DNA of 64,000 nt from Pedobacter changchengzhani (GTDB lineage Bacteria > Bacteroidota > Bacteroidia > Sphingobacteriales > Sphingobacteriaceae): NCBI RefSeq assembly GCF_004354365.1, contig NZ_SJCY01000004.1, positions 310,001-374,000 of the forward strand, given 5' to 3'. Below are positions 9,730 through 49,493 of this stretch, piece after piece. Numbering within the stretch: the first letter of the stretch is position 1; the number at the start of each line of letters is the position of its first letter. The notes under the pieces were generated by a model that worked only from the letters and a program-made list of their open reading frames with translations, made no database searches and had not been told where the DNA came from. A program made the position numbers and the translations under genes.

Positions 9730-10909
9730 CTACCTCTTCCTTCTTTCCTTTGCTAAGGGTAATGCCTAAAGTCATAATAATACTTGTACCCAAAACAACC
9801 AAAAATAAAAATGATGGGCCAATTTGTTCCATTTTAAGAGATTCGGGAAGGTTGAAATAGAGCAAAATGCTGATTAACCCTCGTGGCGCAATGTAAAGTA
9901 TCGGTGTTAAGGCACCTTTCTTTAACGCTTTCAAAAGCCCAAACCTAATTGCGAAAATTGCAACCAAAATGAAAACTCCATTTGCAATGATGATAGGATC
10001 ATTTAGCTTGGTAATGTCCATTGTAAACCCAAATATCACAAAGAAAAAAGTACGCAATATAAATGCACTCTCTGCTGATAGCTGGTAAAGTTGTGATAAA
10101 TCTGTTGATAAATTTTTATAAATAAACACACTTCTAAACCAGGCATTCTTAATATTATCAACATTATTTAAAAATAAGCCAGTACTTAAAATTAAAACTA
10201 ATGAGGAGAGGTGGTAAGATTGCCCTATTGCATAAACTAATATTAAAATCGAAATAATTAAAAAGAATTTGATGTTATGCACCAATTTTCCCATAATAAA
10301 AATTAGAATAATACAAGCTACCGCAGAAAGTATGAGAATGAGCGAAGTACTAAATGCCAAACCAAGAAATGAAGATGGTGTTAGCGTGCTATTAGTGATA
10401 ACGAAATTGAAAGTTACAATGCCAAGAATATCAGAAAAAGAGGATTCGTAAATCACAAACTCTTTATCATCTTTGTTTAATGCTGCTGCCGAGGGTATTG
10501 CAATTGCAGAACTAATTACGCTGAAAGGAATGGCATTTGCAATGCACGTATATAAATCTTTGTGCGAGATTTGATAAATTACAAAGGTAATAACGGTTGT
10601 TGTGGCGATTAAAATTAATAGCGCACTTAAAAAAGCCGTTTTTATCAACTTATTCTTCTCCTTATCGTATTTCAGCTCTAACGATCCTTCAAAAACAATC
10701 ATGATTAAGCCAACAGTGCCTAAAGTGGGTAATATTGCTAAAAAGTTGATGGTTGGTATTTTTAAATAATCAACTAAAAAATGCAAACCTATACCCAGCA
10801 GTAGCAACAGCAAAACTGAAGGTATTTTCGTTTTAGTTGCAACCAAATCGAATAGGTATGAGAAAATTACTAGCCCACTTAAAATGATCAGAATGGTGTA
10901 AGTTGTCAT
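9719..10909 (-). CDS. Cation:proton antiporter (CPA1/NhaP-like)
   Basis: A 396-residue inner-membrane protein with about 12 hydrophobic segments and the layout of the sodium/hydrogen exchanger family, which trades cytoplasmic Na+ or K+ for H+. The conserved unwound-helix region reads 'ESSFSDILGIVTFN' (near 155); the usual Asn-Asp pair is Ser-Asp here, so ion selectivity is uncertain. The C-terminal helix contains 'APRGLISILLYF', a strong family mark with the conserved Arg. There is no cytoplasmic regulatory domain. It converges on the secreted protein gene with an 11-base overlap. Confidence 0.88.
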   Translation of the reverse strand: MTTYTILIILSGLVIFSYLFDLVATKTKIPSVLLLLLLGIGLHFLVDYLKIPTINFLAILPTLGTVGLIMIVFEGSLELKYDKEKNKLIKTAFLSALLILIATTTVITFVIYQISHKDLYTCIANAIPFSVISSAIAIPSAAALNKDDKEFVIYESSFSDILGIVTFNFVITNSTLTPSSFLGLAFSTSLILILSAVACIILIFIMGKLVHNIKFFLIISILILVYAIGQSYHLSSLVLILSTGLFLNNVDNIKNAWFRSVFIYKNLSTDLSQLYQLSAESAFILRTFFFVIFGFTMDITKLNDPIIIANGVFILVAIFAIRFGLLKALKKGALTPILYIAPRGLISILLYFNLPESLKMEQIGPSFLFLVVLGTSIIMTLGITLSKGKKEEVATV

Positions 10910-10970
10910 GTTTTTTAAAAAAGATTAAGTTTTAAAATTGCATAAACATTTTTAAAAATTATGTTTTTAT

Positions 10971-11498
10971 TTATAATTCCGATTTTAGAAATAGTGCTTT
11001 AAGTTCATTAGCGTCTTGGGGGCGCATTTTTCCGCCCAAAACTAAGCGCAATTGTCGCCTGCGTAAAGCACCATCAAAAAGATCAGTTTCTTCTTTCGAT
11101 TCTGGTATTACTTCAGGCACTGGAATGGTTTTTCCGTTTTCATCCAAAGCTACAAAAGTATAATAAGCCTCGTTGCTTTTCTGGCGTTCGCCACTTGGAA
11201 TGTTCTCTGCCCAAACATCCAACCGAACCTCTACGGAGGTGTTAAAAGCCCTGGTCACTTTTGCTTCAATGGTAATTACATCACCAAGTTTAATGGGTTG
11301 CTTAAAAGAAACATTATCTACAGAAGCAGTCACCACGATTCTGTTGCAATGCTTTTGAGCGGAAATAGCTGCTGCGATATCCATCCAATGCAATAACCGC
11401 CCGCCCATTAAATTATTGAGTGTATTGGTATCGTTTGGCAAAACCAATTCGTTCATAATGGTTGCACTCTCTTTAGCAAATTTCTTTTTCAAAATCAT
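10971..11498 (-). CDS. Acyl-CoA thioesterase, hotdog fold (YciA/BACH type)
   Basis: A 175-residue thioesterase that hydrolyses acyl-CoA to free acid and CoA. Family marks are 'NELVLPNDTNTLNNLMGGRLLHWMDIAAAISA' in the N-terminal half, holding the catalytic Asn and Asp of the hotdog helix, and 'TASVDNVSFKQPIKLGDVI' after it. The start at 11498 fits the family N-terminus better than the in-frame start at 11519. The gene is single; the downstream antiporter gene starts 61 bases later on the same strand and may be co-transcribed. Confidence 0.9.
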   Translation of the reverse strand: MILKKKFAKESATIMNELVLPNDTNTLNNLMGGRLLHWMDIAAAISAQKHCNRIVVTASVDNVSFKQPIKLGDVITIEAKVTRAFNTSVEVRLDVWAENIPSGERQKSNEAYYTFVALDENGKTIPVPEVIPESKEETDLFDGALRRRQLRLVLGGKMRPQDANELKALFLKSEL

Positions 11499-41460: not shown

Positions 41461-42282
41461 TTAGAAAATATTACTATTTCTTATTAGTTCTTTTACCTGA
41501 TTTTTAAAATCAGCTACATTTAATTGTAGATATTTATTCCCTTTAACTAAAATGGTTATTCCAAATTTTTTAGTTACTTTAAGATTACCGTCATTTCCAT
41601 CAATTCCATCAGCACCATTTTCGCCATTTTTTCCACCGATACCGCCCTGTCCGCCAGCACCACCTTTCCCTCCAGTTCCACCTGAACCACCATTTCCTCC
41701 ATTGCCACCTTGCCCTCCAATACCCGCAGTGCCACCTTTGCCACCAAGACCGCCTTTACCACCAAGACCGCCTTTACCACCGTTCTCCCCAGAAATCCCA
41801 TCTTTTCCATCTGCACCATTAATACCATCTTGCCCATTACCTGCAGTTTTATGATGAAGGCTAATTGTATCAGGCTGAAAATTTTTGCAGATAAAAACAG
41901 TTTTATCATTTCGCTTAATGTTTTCGTTCAAAGAATTAAATGTATTCTTTAACTTCAAAATTTTAGTTGCATTATTCGAGAATACTTTAATGGCCGATTT
42001 CGAATGTAATTTGGCATTTTCATTCGAAATAATTGAATCACAAATAATAATTACTGCATATTTATTTCCTTTTGGGTTAACGATTTCAATATCATCATTT
42101 ACGACTAAAATTTTCGTTCTAATGATTGAAAAGGTTTGTCTCTCATGTCCACTTTGCCCCCAAATTGTTTTTTCTACCTCGTATTTGTTATTTAAGATTG
42201 AAGAAACCAACTCATTCTTGGTTGTCTGGCCTTGGGCGTGAAAATTTAAGAGTATAAATAAGAAAACGATAATTTTTTGCAT
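41461..42282 (-). CDS. Secreted collagen-like (Gly-X-Y repeat) protein
   Basis: A 273-residue protein. The signal peptide ('[15 protein letters not shown]') leads to a beta-rich domain of about 120 residues, then a run of about 28 Gly-X-Y triplets (residues about 148-235, such as GKG, GLG, GGQ, GNG) and a 35-residue C-terminal tail. The tract would form a short collagen-type triple helix or a glycine-rich beta structure; many triplets have Gly also at the second or third position and none has Pro, so a glycine-rich coil is as likely. Its role may be a surface or matrix protein. The repeat makes copy-number variation likely. Confidence 0.85.
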
Positions 42283-42784: not shown

Positions 42785-43066
42785 TTAGCAAGTGGATTAC
42801 GCTATTGTATCTGGACGGACTGGAAGAAACCCGAACGTAAACGGAAAAACCTGATACGTTTAGGAGTGGATGCCGACCACGCCTATGCATGGAGTAGAAC
42901 CAGAAAGGGAGGTTGGCGCATAGCGCAGAGCCCAATTTTGACAACTACGATAACAATCAAACGGTTAAAGCAGAAAAGCTACATTCCAATGCTAGAGATT
43001 TACACAAAACTCAACCCATCAGTTTACGAACCGCCGTATACGAGACCCGTACGTACGGTGGTGTGA
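42785..43066 (+). pseudogene. Group II intron maturase, C-terminal fragment
   Basis: An open frame without a start codon of its own; the frame is closed by TGA at 42776-42778 and ends at 43066. The translation contains 'LRYCIWTDWKKPERKRKNLI', 'HAYAWSRTRKGGW', 'IAQSPIL' and 'EPPYTRPVRTVV', the C-terminal thumb/maturase X-domain end of group II intron reverse transcriptases. The reverse transcriptase core and everything upstream are missing, so it cannot be active. GC content is visibly higher than in the flanks, a sign of transfer. Confidence 0.9.
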
Positions 43067-43109
43067 GAGGCGCACTCTGTCAGGTTTCTGGCAGAGCCGT
43101 CTACTCGAT
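42785..43109 (+). mobile_element. 3' end of a group II intron (truncated)
   Basis: After the maturase fragment come domain V (about 43029-43063) and domain VI (about 43071-43097), then the typical end CTACTCGAT at 43101-43109. Domain V folds with stem ACCGCCGTA/TACGGTGGT, a bulge and an upper stem TACG/CGTA. The catalytic triad position reads CGC (43032-43034) with a G-T wobble at 43033, as in group IIC introns. Domains I-III are missing. The 3' junction lies directly in a TTAGCGGTAG repeat shared with the neighbouring cassette boundary. Confidence 0.85.
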
Positions 43110-43118
43110 TAGCGGTAG
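43109..43118. repeat. Cassette boundary repeat interrupted by the intron
   Basis: TTAGCGGTAG is identical to 43968-43977, the end of the inverted-repeat element behind the DUF1877 gene. The intron end overlaps its first T. It lies four bases from the stop codon of the 223-residue gene. Confidence 0.7.
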
Positions 43119-43121
43119 TTT

Positions 43122-43793
43122 TTATTTGTAAATTATTAATCGGCTTTTGTCAAATTTACAATAATGTCCATTTTTCCATATTTCAAAGTAACTTTTCAGA
43201 AAGTCCTGTTCAGGTTTATCTACAAAACTTGGATATTGTAAATAGTATGATAAATAATAATCACAATTTATTGAATAATACGCTTCACTTAATACACTAT
43301 TTAACTTTTCCTCGTTTTCGTTTTCTATTCCCCAATCTGAAATAGCATCATATATATACGAATTTAGATAATCGTCTTCTAATTCGATTTCTTTTTCAAC
43401 GACATTTATTTCATTTACATTATTTAGTAATTCTTCCAATTCATTATCGTCAATGAATTTTGCGAATAATTTTAAATTTTCGATATGCTGATGTCCTAAT
43501 TCTTCTAATAATGCAATATTTTCACTAGCATTTGGGCAAAAATAGCCTGGTGAAACACCTTCTTCAAATTGTTTTAAAGTCTTTTCTTTCGTAACTTCAT
43601 AAACATCTAAAATTCTTTTTAATAATTGTTCGCTATTTTCTAAAGGCTGAAATACTTTTTCAACATTTTTACCCTCGGGCATAAAACATTGAAAATACGC
43701 ATAAAAAAGTTCAGAAAAATCTTCTTCTCCGATTTCAATATCTAAATCTTCTACTAAACTTGCTAAATATTCTGAATATTTCTTTTTGTCCAT
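43122..43793 (-). CDS. Hypothetical acidic protein, cassette module gene 1
   Basis: A 223-residue soluble, acidic protein without signal peptide or membrane segment. It is rich in Glu, Asp and Tyr ('IEIGEEDFSELFYAYFQCFMPEG', 'DYYLSYYLQYPSFV') and probably mainly helical. No family is recognised. It sits in a module bounded by GTTAGCG/CGCTAA repeats: its start is preceded by the element at 43836-43976 and its stop is followed within four bases by the repeat that the group II intron abuts. Such isolated single-gene modules often carry accessory functions such as immunity proteins, but nothing here proves that. Confidence 0.7.
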   Translation of the reverse strand: MDKKKYSEYLASLVEDLDIEIGEEDFSELFYAYFQCFMPEGKNVEKVFQPLENSEQLLKRILDVYEVTKEKTLKQFEEGVSPGYFCPNASENIALLEELGHQHIENLKLFAKFIDDNELEELLNNVNEINVVEKEIELEDDYLNSYIYDAISDWGIENENEEKLNSVLSEAYYSINCDYYLSYYLQYPSFVDKPEQDFLKSYFEIWKNGHYCKFDKSRLIIYK

Positions 43794-43835
43794 TTGTTAT
43801 CTTAATTATTTCATTTTAAGTTCGTTCCGTAAAAT

Positions 43836-43976
43836 TACCGCTAACGTTTTGAAAATTTGTTCAGAAATGGTATTGCTTGCAGAACCAATGTCGCACCGCA
43901 CTGAACTAAATAATTAACGAAAAACCTGAGTTGAACCACCGTCAGCCATTTTTGAACAAATTTGCTGTTAGCGGTA
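43836..43976. repeat. 141-base inverted-repeat element between two cassette-like genes (attC-like)
   Basis: Outer arms TACCGCTAAC (43836-43845) and GTTAGCGGTA (43967-43976) pair perfectly over 10 bp. After a 7-against-3-base bulge, AAATTTGTTCA (43853-43863) pairs with 43953-43963 over 11 bp, and AAATGG with CCATTT extends the stem. The 75-base centre is variable. This layout (two boxes, unpaired spacer, long loop) is like an integron attC site, but the core sequence does not fit the RYYYAAC/GTTRRRY consensus. Confidence 0.75.
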
Positions 43977-43995
43977 GGTGTTGTTTGTCAGCTAC

Positions 43996-44505
43996 TTAAA
44001 GTATGCTCACAATAACGTGATGTTTTTTCGTTACGGCTTTTTTATAAAATTCTAGAATTTCAGTTAATGTTTGTTTGAATTCTCCAATTAATTGTTCCTT
44101 GCTGTCCTGCTCAATTCCCTTTGGATATACTTTGTTTTTTTTCAACATTTTGGGGTCGAAATTACTTGCAAGTTTGTCAAACTCAATTTTTTCAATTGCA
44201 GTTATTATTTCTGTCAATTCTTCATTTTCTGTGCAGGTAATAAAGTCAGCATCATCATCGTCAATGTTGAAGTTGTGTATACCAACAATAGCCTCGCTTA
44301 ATTTGTCGCCCTCAATAGGTTCAGATGCAGAAACTCCTGTCAAAAAGCAATGAAGTGCATCCCAAACTTTGTCAATGTCCATACATTCAAACTTTCCGCT
44401 TTCTTCTATTTCAAAAAGTTTGTTAGTCAAGTCTTCGTTATTTAAGTCCATAAGAGAATTTAAAGTCTCTTCATCAACCATAAGATATTCAGCAATCATT
44501 CCCAT
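43996..44505 (-). CDS. DUF1877 (YfbM-family) protein, cassette module gene 2
   Basis: A 169-residue soluble protein of the YfbM/DUF1877 family. It has the typical start 'MGMIAEYLMVDEETLNSLM', then 'DIDKVWDALHCFLTGVS' and 'KLSEAIVGIHNFN', and ends with 'HHVIVSIL'. The fold is known for E. coli YfbM, but its function is not. It forms the second module, bounded by GTTAGCGTTAAG on its start side (44571-44560, minus strand) and by CTACCGCTAAC on its stop side (43977-43967). Confidence 0.88.
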   Translation of the reverse strand: MGMIAEYLMVDEETLNSLMDLNNEDLTNKLFEIEESGKFECMDIDKVWDALHCFLTGVSASEPIEGDKLSEAIVGIHNFNIDDDDADFITCTENEELTEIITAIEKIEFDKLASNFDPKMLKKNKVYPKGIEQDSKEQLIGEFKQTLTEILEFYKKAVTKKHHVIVSIL

Positions 44506-44559
44506 AATTAATATTTATTTTATAAAGTTGTTGTTCGTGTATGAAGGCCGGTCTGTACA

Positions 44560-44571
44560 CTTAACGCTAAC
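44560..44571. repeat. Outer boundary repeat of the DUF1877 module
   Basis: CTTAACGCTAAC on the plus strand shares CGCTAAC with 43839-43845. No long inverted partner is present; downstream the word TATATGTGCAA occurs twice (about 44577 and 44620). It could be the remains of a second inverted-repeat element. Confidence 0.45.
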
Positions 44572-44730
44572 TTATATATATGTGCAATGAATCCGCACAA
44601 ATGCAGCTTTATTAGTATGTATATGTGCAACTTCATAGCTTATAATATTTTTTTGAAGTTAATTATTTTATTTTCAAATCAACACAATAATTTCTGGCAA
44701 ATAAACACTTATTCCTTACCCAAAACAAAA

Positions 44731-46756: not shown

Positions 46757-46917
46757 GAGTTTCATACAGCAAAATTCCAAGGGGTTGGGTGAAAAAAAGT
46801 TGGCCACGCCATAAAATTCAAGAAAAAACTGAATAAGTGATGTCACACTGAGCTCCAGCCTGTAAGGCAGGTGTATAAGGGTATTTGTCTGGTTAACGAT
46901 AATGAAGGATTATCGGA

Positions 46918-47285
46918 CTTCCGTCTATTTTATTTTTACGCCCAAACTTCGGTCTTCCCGCCTTTTCGGTCTTTTTTCTACGCTTAAACTTACTTACTCA
47001 GTCATCGGCTTTCCGCCTATTTTATTTTTACGCTCAAACTTCCGTCTTCCCGACTTTTCCGTCTTTCGGACTTTTTTTTACGCTTAAACTTCCGTCATCG
47101 GCTTTCCGTCTATTTTATTTTTACGCCCAAACTTCGGTCTTCCCGACTTTTCCGTCTTTCGGACTTTTTTCTACGCTTAAACTTACTTACTCAGTCATCG
47201 GCTTTCCGTCTATTTTATTTTCACGCTTAAACTTCGGTCTTCCTGACTTTTCTGTCTTTCGGACTTTTTTTAAACTTCCGACTTC
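46918..47285. repeat. Tandem repeat, four units of about 91-100 bases
   Basis: Units begin at about 46918, 47009, 47102 and 47202 with (T)TTCCG(T/C)CTATTTTATTTT, followed by AAACTTCGGTCTTCCCGACTTTT and CGGACTTTTTT. The plus strand is pyrimidine-rich. The array fills the space between fur and the RelA/SpoT gene up to the latter's stop codon. No gene is present in 46624-47285. Confidence 0.8.
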
Positions 47286-49493
47286 CTACGCATCAAACCT
47301 AGTTACAGCAGTAACACCTTTTACTTGCAATAAATTTTTAATTAAGTTTTCTAAATGTTCGGTATCGTTAACGAAAATCATAATCGAACCATCAAAAATA
47401 CCTTCATCTGTGTCCACGGTTATAGATCGCATATTTACTTTAAAATCGTTAGAAATTACTTTGGTTATGTTGTTAATCAAGCCAACATCATCAATGCCTA
47501 TAATATGTAGGCCCGTTAAGAAAGTGAGTTCTTTTTGTCCGTTCCACTTCGCTTTAACTACTCTATAGCCGTAATTCGCCATTAATTGCGTTGCATTAGG
47601 GCAATTTGTACGGTGAATTTTGATGCCTTCGCTCACGGTTACGAAACCAAAAACATCATCGCCAGGAATAGGATTACAGCAAGCTGCCAAAGTATAATCG
47701 ATGCGTTGCATATCTTCACCAATCAATAAAATATCGGTGTCGGCACCTTTCATTTTATTTTTCACCATATCAACCGTTAGGTTTTCTGGTCTTTCTGGCC
47801 CTTTAGTATCTACATCTTTTTCACTGGTAACGTATTCTTTAATATCTTTAAGTTCAATTTTGCCCTGCGCTACCTGTATAAAAAGTTCTTGTGTAGATTG
47901 AAGTTTAAAAAAGTAACTAATTTTTTGAATGTTTTCTGTATTGTAGGTGATTTTTAGCGACTTCATTTTGCGCTCTAAAATCTCTTTGCCATTATCGGCA
48001 ATTTTGCGTTTTTCTTCTTTTAAAGATGATTTTATTTTAGATTTGGCTTTGGCCGTCACCACTACATTTAGCCAATCTTCTTTTGGCGTTTGCTTGCTCG
48101 AGGTAATAATTTCTACCTGATCGCCGTTTTGCAACTTATAAGATATTGGTACAAGCTTGTGATTAACTTTTGCGCCAATACAAGTTGCACCAACGCCGGT
48201 ATGAATTTCAAAGGCAAAATCTAAAGCGGTAGCACCTAACGGAAGTTGAATTAAAGCACCTTTTGGCGTAAAAATAAAAATCTCATCCGAAAAAAGATTC
48301 ATCTTAAAATCGTCCAAAAAATCTAGCGCGTTGGCTTCAGGATTACTGAGCATTTCCCTCACTTTCATAATCCATTGGTCGAGCCCGTTATCGTTGCTCG
48401 ATTCTTTGTATTTCCAATGCGCAGCAAAACCTTTTTCAGCAATTTCATTCATGCGTTGCGTACGAATTTGTACTTCTACCCATTGTCCGCGGGGTCCCAT
48501 TACCGTGGTGTGCAAACTCTCATAGCCATTACCTTTTGGCGATGAAACCCAGTCGCGCAACCTGTCGGGATTAGGGCGATAAAGATCGGTAACGATAGAA
48601 TATGCTTTCCAACAATCGGCTTTTTCATTTTCTGGCGCACTATCTAATATTATTCTAATGGCAAAAAGATCATATACTTCTTCAAAAGGAATGTTTTTAT
48701 TTTTCATTTTATTCCAAATTGAATGTATGGATTTCGGTCGGCCATACACATTTGAAACTAATGATTGTTCTTGAAGGATCTCATCAATCGGCTCGACGAA
48801 TTTTTTAACAAATAATGCACGTTCAGCCTTTTTTTCGTTTAGTTTTTTTGCGATAAACTTGTAAGTATCTGGTTCTAAATACTTCATTGATAAATCTTCC
48901 AGTTCGGATTTAATGGCATATAAACCCAATCTATGTGCAAGTGGCGCATATAAATAAATGGTTTCGGATGCTATTTTAAGTTGCTTATGGCGAGGCATAA
49001 AATCCATGGTGCGCATATTATGCAAGCGATCGGCAAGTTTTATTAAAATCACCCTAACATCATCCGCAAGGGTAAGTAGCATTTTCCTAAAATTTTCTGC
49101 TTGCAAGGAACTATTGGTATCAAAAACACCCGAAATTTTGGTTAAGCCATCAATTATTTTTGCGGTTTTTTTACCAAATTCTCTTTCAATATCTTCCAAA
49201 CTGATGTCGGTATCTTCCACAACATCGTGTAGTAAAGCGCAAACAATTGATGTAGTGCCTAAACCTATCTCTTCTGCAGAAATTTGAGCCACCGCAATTG
49301 GATGATAAATATAAGGCTCGCCAGATTTTCGCCGCATATCTTTATGGCTCTCCAAGGCCATATCAAAAGCTTTTCTGATTTCTTTTTTATCGCCTTTTTG
49401 CAACGTAGATTTGCTGGCGCGCAACAATGCCCTATATCTTTTTAAAATTTCTCTTTTCTCAGCCTCTAAATCAATTACTAACTCTGTTTTCAT
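47286..49493 (-). CDS. Bifunctional (p)ppGpp synthetase/hydrolase, RelA/SpoT family
   Basis: A 735-residue long RSH enzyme that controls the stringent response. An N-terminal HD hydrolase domain (about 50-200; HD at 89-90 in 'ALLHDVVEDT'), the synthetase domain (about 250-360, 'YGRPKSIHSIWNKM', 'GYESLHTTVMGP'), a TGS domain (about 400-460, 'IFTPKGALIQLPLGATALDFAFEIHT'), the helical/CC region with 'CCNPIPGDDVFGF' and a C-terminal ACT domain (about 660-735) are all visible. The intact HD motif suggests both activities. It is a single gene. Confidence 0.95.
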   Translation of the reverse strand: MKTELVIDLEAEKREILKRYRALLRASKSTLQKGDKKEIRKAFDMALESHKDMRRKSGEPYIYHPIAVAQISAEEIGLGTTSIVCALLHDVVEDTDISLEDIEREFGKKTAKIIDGLTKISGVFDTNSSLQAENFRKMLLTLADDVRVILIKLADRLHNMRTMDFMPRHKQLKIASETIYLYAPLAHRLGLYAIKSELEDLSMKYLEPDTYKFIAKKLNEKKAERALFVKKFVEPIDEILQEQSLVSNVYGRPKSIHSIWNKMKNKNIPFEEVYDLFAIRIILDSAPENEKADCWKAYSIVTDLYRPNPDRLRDWVSSPKGNGYESLHTTVMGPRGQWVEVQIRTQRMNEIAEKGFAAHWKYKESSNDNGLDQWIMKVREMLSNPEANALDFLDDFKMNLFSDEIFIFTPKGALIQLPLGATALDFAFEIHTGVGATCIGAKVNHKLVPISYKLQNGDQVEIITSSKQTPKEDWLNVVVTAKAKSKIKSSLKEEKRKIADNGKEILERKMKSLKITYNTENIQKISYFFKLQSTQELFIQVAQGKIELKDIKEYVTSEKDVDTKGPERPENLTVDMVKNKMKGADTDILLIGEDMQRIDYTLAACCNPIPGDDVFGFVTVSEGIKIHRTNCPNATQLMANYGYRVVKAKWNGQKELTFLTGLHIIGIDDVGLINNITKVISNDFKVNMRSITVDTDEGIFDGSIMIFVNDTEHLENLIKNLLQVKGVTAVTRFDA

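Follow-up and report, generated by a model that had tools for sequence, protein, structure and literature searches.

Putative integron-like gene cassettes in Pedobacter changchengzhani linked to a tyrosine recombinase without the I2 insertion

Results

Two cassette-like units between purA and a synthase gene

The two single-gene units that lie between purA and a synthase gene in the window (the whole 64,000-nucleotide stretch of Pedobacter changchengzhani DNA analyzed here, positions 310,001 to 374,000 of contig NZ_SJCY01000004.1, assembly GCF_004354365.1) very probably belong, as gene cassettes, to a chromosomal integron-like system with an integrase that has no I2 insertion. Genome sequences supply the evidence for this reading, namely, cassette units with matched ends, hairpins with a strand asymmetry, an attI-like site, linkage to an integrase without I2, and the exact exchange of a single cassette between families. 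A first-pass annotation of the window had proposed integron-like cassettes with a noncanonical core, possibly a distinct and undescribed system, and this proposal gained support from arrays found beside a tyrosine recombinase and from the movement of single units. The features of the site are as follows.

44572-44588, minus strand: left flank ATTGCACATATATATAA, directly before the first GTT, read from the sequence; putative attI-like site
43846-44571, minus strand: cassette 1, made up of the DUF1877 gene, R'', and the attC-like hairpin (box match, Pfam)
44571-44560, minus strand: start box of cassette 1, GTTAGCGTTAAG (letters exact)
43996-44505, minus strand: gene for a DUF1877 protein of 169 aa (open reading frame; PF08974, E = 2.6e-37)
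43977-43967, minus strand: R'' box ending cassette 1, CTACCGCTAAC (letters exact)
43834-43977, minus strand: attC-like element, in the order R'' CTACCGCTAAC, spacer, L'', variable loop, L', spacer CAAAAC, R' GTTAGCGGTAAT
43845-43834, minus strand: R' box, which is the start of cassette 2, GTTAGCGGTAAT (letters exact)
43110-43845, minus strand: cassette 2, made up of the 223-aa gene with an interrupted R'', CTACCGCTA (43118-43110), at its end
43122-43793, minus strand: gene for a 223-aa protein (open reading frame)
43118-43109, minus strand: last repeat, at the right end, CTACCGCTAA (letters exact; half-site)
43029-43109, plus strand: 3' end of a group II intron, domains V-VI (Rfam RF00029, 41 bits, full model length)
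42794-43066, plus strand: remnant frame GLRYCIWTDWKKP..., putative C-terminal end of an intron-type reverse transcriptase/maturase (translation, DNA match to genome G213)

The repeats named in the first-pass annotation were exact in letters and coordinates on the minus strand, and its naming of the first gene agrees with the Pfam match. Its description of each unit as one gene plus one 3' repeat applies to the cassettes, but the repeat at 43118-43109 is not intact, being a half-site at an intron junction. The start and end boxes of cassette 1 match at 5/6 positions, and those of cassette 2 are complementary by direct reading of the sequence. The site thus holds one intact and one broken attC-like element, and it holds no integrase gene. 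On each strand, the intact element (43832-43979) had a better fold than 200 of 200 shuffled sequences (z = -3.4 and -4.2), with an R-type stem outside and an L-type stem inside, in keeping with the attC-like hairpin that had been described there. The bare 7-mer CGCTAAC was only mildly enriched in the window (9 observed versus 4.5 expected), so the word by itself is weak proof, and the proof lies in the paired elements. Searches of Pfam and PADLOC with the 223-aa protein gave no match.

The first cassette is preceded by CATATATATAA, and this left flank resembles the TATAAA-like motif that most integrase genes have downstream, before a GTT; in loose form, the motif has a single occurrence in the window. 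The window cassette thus probably lies at an attI-like site that has no integrase gene. Homologues of the DUF1877 protein (73% identical, genome G058) and of the 223-aa protein (70% identical, genome G074) lie in different contexts and have no attC element beside them, which indicates that the genes were not inherited with their repeats as one block. Among relatives, other genes follow purA or, in one of them (G007), the synthase gene follows it about 200 bp on, which indicates that the window block was inserted between these two genes. An exact empty purA site was sought in relatives and not found, the region downstream of purA being too divergent between species. Elsewhere in the window (46912-47286), 3 to 4 tandem copies of a 93- to 100-bp repeat, TCTTCCCGACTTTTCCGTCTTT, lie directly downstream of a RelA/SpoT-like gene.

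A group II intron remnant at the right end

The 3' end of the intron directly abuts the half-site (CTACTCGAT and then TAGCGGTAG), and the intron has entered the attC-like site on its bottom strand, between GT and TAGCGG. An intron in an array of genome G213 has a junction identical to this one, and the two intron ends match at 83% on the DNA level. The window copy is a 3' remnant, the remainder being missing. In translation, its frame resembles the last part of an intron maturase; the short piece had no match in Pfam or NCBIfam. Group IIC-attC introns target R'' on the attC bottom strand, at the site TTGT/T (PMC7923331). The window and G213 introns share with them the bottom strand of the attC at R'' (site CTGT/TAGC), but their host sites are the new attC-like elements, and the window copy is only a 3' remnant. 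A second group II intron, with a maturase frame, was seen at the end of contig C13 (L030, 10494-11100); it is inserted not in R'' but at a cassette gene's stop codon. Between the intron remnant and the synthase gene, the window also carries a gene for a Gly-rich collagen-like protein (41461-42282), for which a Pfam search gave no match.

Arrays and an integrase elsewhere in the same genome

The 3.9-Mb genome to which the window belongs contains more than 20 elements related to those of the window. Same-strand arrays lie on contigs C14 and C13 and at the start of C33, and their cassettes encode proteins of the toxin-antitoxin type (Gp49-like plus HTH), an Imm26-domain protein, a PLD-domain protein, and unknowns. 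The C14 array has at its head, on the same strand, the gene for a 380-aa tyrosine recombinase (L031, 4959-6101). The first-pass statement that no integrase is visible therefore stands for the window but not for the genome, where one lies on another contig at the head of an array. The annotation had also looked to copies of the repeat next to unrelated genes and to a tyrosine recombinase at array ends; the former were seen in this and other genomes, and arrays do start beside such a recombinase.

One C14 cassette is duplicated in tandem (99% over 579 bp). Single elements also follow genes elsewhere in the genome, and one of these strays belongs to a 92.6% copy of an HTH antitoxin-type cassette found on C13. 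A strict pattern with symmetric boxes returned few copies because the boxes differ from cassette to cassette. No IntI scored above the cut-off in this genome, the only other candidates being two XerC/D-like genes. Upstream of the integron on C14 lies a repeat with a period of about 67 bp, GGAAACACAGAATACACGGA (L031, 285-1208).

Boxes match within cassettes

We analyzed the boxes of 26 arrays with 93 elements, comparing six variable positions per box. In integrons, the start and end boxes of a cassette pair once the cassette is circular, and the boxes on either side of an array hairpin come from different cassettes. Start and end boxes of the same cassette agreed at a mean of 5.27 of 6 positions (n = 63; at least 5 in 86%), a value reached by 0 of 5,000 within-array permutations, whereas boxes across the same hairpin agreed at 2.58 of 6 (random, 2.34). 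Cassettes had a median size of 852 bp, with 94% below 2.5 kb. In about 100 kb of resampled sequence, the detector gave no match above 30.5. Since AAC and GTT were required by the detector, their constancy is no evidence; it did not require the A found at position 11 of R' in 93/93 elements or the C found opposite in 78/93. The resulting mismatch is A.C on the top strand and G.T on the bottom strand. The remark in the first-pass annotation that the core lies outside the integron consensus was matched by the counts, with RYYYAAC in 4/93 R'' boxes and GTTRRRY in 5/93 R' boxes.

A consensus fold of 24 elements had 11 pairs, 10 of which keep pairing despite changes on both sides, the covariation and the fold being derived from the same 24 sequences. 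With symmetric scoring, stem wobble came to 154 for the bottom strand versus 59 for the top (arrays, 19 versus 1; P = 4e-5). When hairpins of closed cassettes were folded with DNA parameters, the bottom strand was stabler in 57/63 (mean difference, -3.1 kcal/mol) and, by array mean, in 16/18 arrays. The closed cassette was also stabler than the in-array element in 57/63. Because the cassettes of one array are related, the array counts are the safer figures. The folding energies suggest, indirectly, that the folded bottom strand is preferred.

The array-linked integrase lacks I2

The array-linked integrases keep all of the catalytic residues (R, K, H, R, H, and Y), and in alignment they are without I2, the insertion of about 40 residues that forms an additional domain around patch III in IntI. 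The spacing from R to HxxRH was 89 to 94 in 37 new-type integrases (with array evidence for all except L058 and L065), compared with 94 to 96 in the genome's own two Xer genes and 131 in 24 of 27 IntI; in the other three IntI, the spacing reads 103, probably through motif misassignment. Against the IntI model TIGR02249, the own integrase scored 178 bits, below the cut-off of 265. In a tree of 90 proteins, midpoint rooted and with many deep forks open, 28 IntI formed a separate 100/100 clade on a branch of 0.81, and the array-linked integrases fell outside both this clade and its sister group. That sister group (100/97) consists of recombinases of Patescibacteria and Bacillota that lack I2 (L137, L143, L146, L150, and L151) and are candidate relatives of the pre-I2 ancestor. 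Their flanks, like those of Xer-like matches in Proteobacteria, gave isolated weak matches and no arrays.

The new-type integrase has an extra N-terminal domain (WSxSLKxWHLP) and shares a C-terminal SPxDxL-type motif with IntI. Its structure model, of moderate confidence (pLDDT 76, pTM 0.49), had archaeal XerA as the closest solved structure, followed by IntI4.

An attI-like site heads the arrays

The arrays lie 3' of the integrase gene and on the same strand. Past the integrase stop, we found a GTT followed by the box of the first cassette, matching at 6/6 positions in 21 of 24 arrays and at 5/6 in 2. Twenty of these 23 attI-like sites lay at +77 to +214 after the stop, and for matches beyond +214, the detector probably missed the first element. 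The GTT is usually preceded by a motif such as TATAAATAA or TATATACAA. Further attI-like sites were present in the class-wide sample of integrase loci.

Distribution and exchange between families

Homologues of the integrase occurred in 16 of 146 genomes of the genus, with repeated elements 3' of the gene in most. They were also found in Flavobacterium enshiense, F. aciduliphilum, Winogradskyella ursingii, Seonamhaeicola aphaedonensis, Algibacter onchidii, Algoriphagus ornithinivorans, and Aquiflexum sp. In a class-wide sample, 201 of 395 genomes matched the integrase at E <= 1e-55, a level that the own XerC/D genes do not reach. Forty of the class-wide matches were inspected, 12 of which reach a contig end within 1.5 kb downstream. 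Among the 24 with at least 3 kb downstream, 17 had at least two elements and 15 had chained cassettes, in nine families. About one-third of the matches with enough flank were thus without a confirmed array, and there may be other activities in the family or forms that were missed. Elements of the same kind were also seen in clusters for which no close integrase was found (L071 in G049 and L072 in G054). A phylum-wide scan placed true IntI in other classes; within the same class, a single genome (G182) has one above the cut-off.

A 1.44-kb cassette encoding a MerTP fusion (NF033556, above cut-off) and an ArsR-family regulator was 97.8% identical between F. enshiense and a genome of another family (G603). 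The homology starts and stops at GTT boxes, and the flanks are unrelated, so that a single cassette has been exchanged exactly between families, as read from the two sequences. Transfer of the mercury cassette within a larger piece of DNA is conceivable, although the homology stops exactly at GTT. Vertical inheritance of genes and repeats as one block, a possibility raised in the first-pass annotation, is contradicted by such single-unit movement and by the window-gene homologues without attC.

Discussion

From the arrangement of genes and sites, we infer that the tyrosine recombinase encoded just upstream of the array, on the same strand and without I2, would be the cassette enzyme and would act by a single-strand mechanism. 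Its substrates would be the folded bottom strand of the cassette attC hairpin and a double-stranded attI, with a TATAAA-like motif before GTT about 80 to 215 bp past the integrase's own gene. Circular single-gene cassettes would be inserted at the attI GTT and could be excised or shuffled afterwards. The window pair would presumably have been put in trans at its attI-like site, which has no integrase, and an intron of the group IIC-attC type would later have landed in the terminal attC of the window. For the window pair only, it is quite possible, if doubtful, that we see a relic which homologous recombination, or rearrangement of an array end, brought to purA in place of a site-specific insertion. 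The lack of an integrase there, a right end made up of a broken intron and a half-site, and the adjoining purA and synthase genes of a relative would all fit such a relic, but its left boundary is an attI-like motif (TATATATAA) directly before GTT.

For the system as a whole, a canonical IntI integron that lost I2 secondarily and uses ordinary attC sites is improbable. The own integrase does score on the IntI model, the SPxDxL-type motif is common to both, and true IntI is present in other classes of the phylum, but the score is under the cut-off, no array-linked integrase of the tree falls inside the well-separated IntI clade, the R boxes depart from the consensus, and the array follows int at its 3' side and shares its strand. 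It is highly improbable that another recombinase (XerC/D, or IntI in trans) moves the cassettes, with the adjacent one a passenger. Elements in genomes without a close integrase and stray cassettes far from one are what a passenger would predict; against it stand the integrase at the array head with a conserved attI in many families, the own genome in which two XerC/D-like genes are the sole other candidates, and the absence of arrays near the Xer-like matches of Proteobacteria. Scarcely credible, finally, is an origin as dispersed hairpin repeats (REP/MITE-like) that stand after genes by chance. Such repeats would account for the single elements scattered in the genome, yet they would pair across their own hairpin, whereas the variable boxes instead match within the cassette; cassettes are exchanged and duplicated at GTT, and attI recurs at array heads. 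We rejected repeats of this type on the same-cassette box matching, which holds unless the box assignment is an artifact.

Cassettes of an integron-like system are therefore our preferred reading, and it seems likely that they belong to a separate integron class, widespread in Bacteroidia, with a Xer-like integrase that never acquired I2 (or can do without it) and with attC sites folded as single strands. This class would represent either an ancestral integron that predates I2 or a second, convergent origin. Its function appears integron-like as far as sequence can tell; by I2, by clade, and by attC consensus, it falls outside the IntI integrons. It resembles sedentary chromosomal integrons in its single-gene cassettes of about 0.5 to 2 kb, in the attC hairpin 3' of the gene with R and L boxes and a bottom-strand bias, in the attI at the array head with GTT as the recombination point, and in arrays of one orientation with toxin-antitoxin-type and unknown cassettes. 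It differs from them in an integrase that lacks I2, lies outside IntI, has an extra N-terminal domain, and precedes the array in the same direction, and in R boxes of about 10 bp that are variable, do not follow RYYYAAC/GTTRRRY, and have an invariant A at R' position 11, usually with C opposite. With XerA, XerC, and XerD, the new type shares the catalytic fold and a similar R-to-HxxRH spacing, but it has the WSxSLKxWHLP domain at the N terminus, 3' cassette arrays, and attI. The window pair is like CALIN (attC clusters without an integrase) in having attC and no local integrase, but it has one intact and one broken attC and an attI-like motif at the left end.

Bacteroidota are listed among integron phyla in reviews (PMC8618304). 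IntegronFinder 2.0 names Chlorobi, Ignavibacteriae, and Salinibacter ruber, the last as the sole complete integron within Bacteroidetes proper (PMC9024848). Two published surveys defined IntI by the additional domain (PMC2426708; PMC8352920), so arrays in Bacteroidota whose integrase lacks I2 would be missed. Given that definition and the IntegronFinder result, a large gene capture system of environmental Bacteroidia would have been overlooked. We found no description of integrons without I2 in the open-access literature. The I2 helix is considered the innovation that converted a double-strand recombinase into an integron integrase; deletion of I2 kills IntI1, and its causality is without direct proof (PMC7790495). 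A natural integron working without I2 would make this causality testable, and the system appears to carry genes such as those for mercury transport between families.

Hairpins of another kind were seen at one locus (L068), where two 158-bp repeats, AACATTCGTAAATC ... GATTTACGAATGTT, lie at 9988-10145 and 10815-10973. They are unlike the attC-like type and adjoin a shorter related recombinase, and they possibly form a separate hairpin-bounded element.
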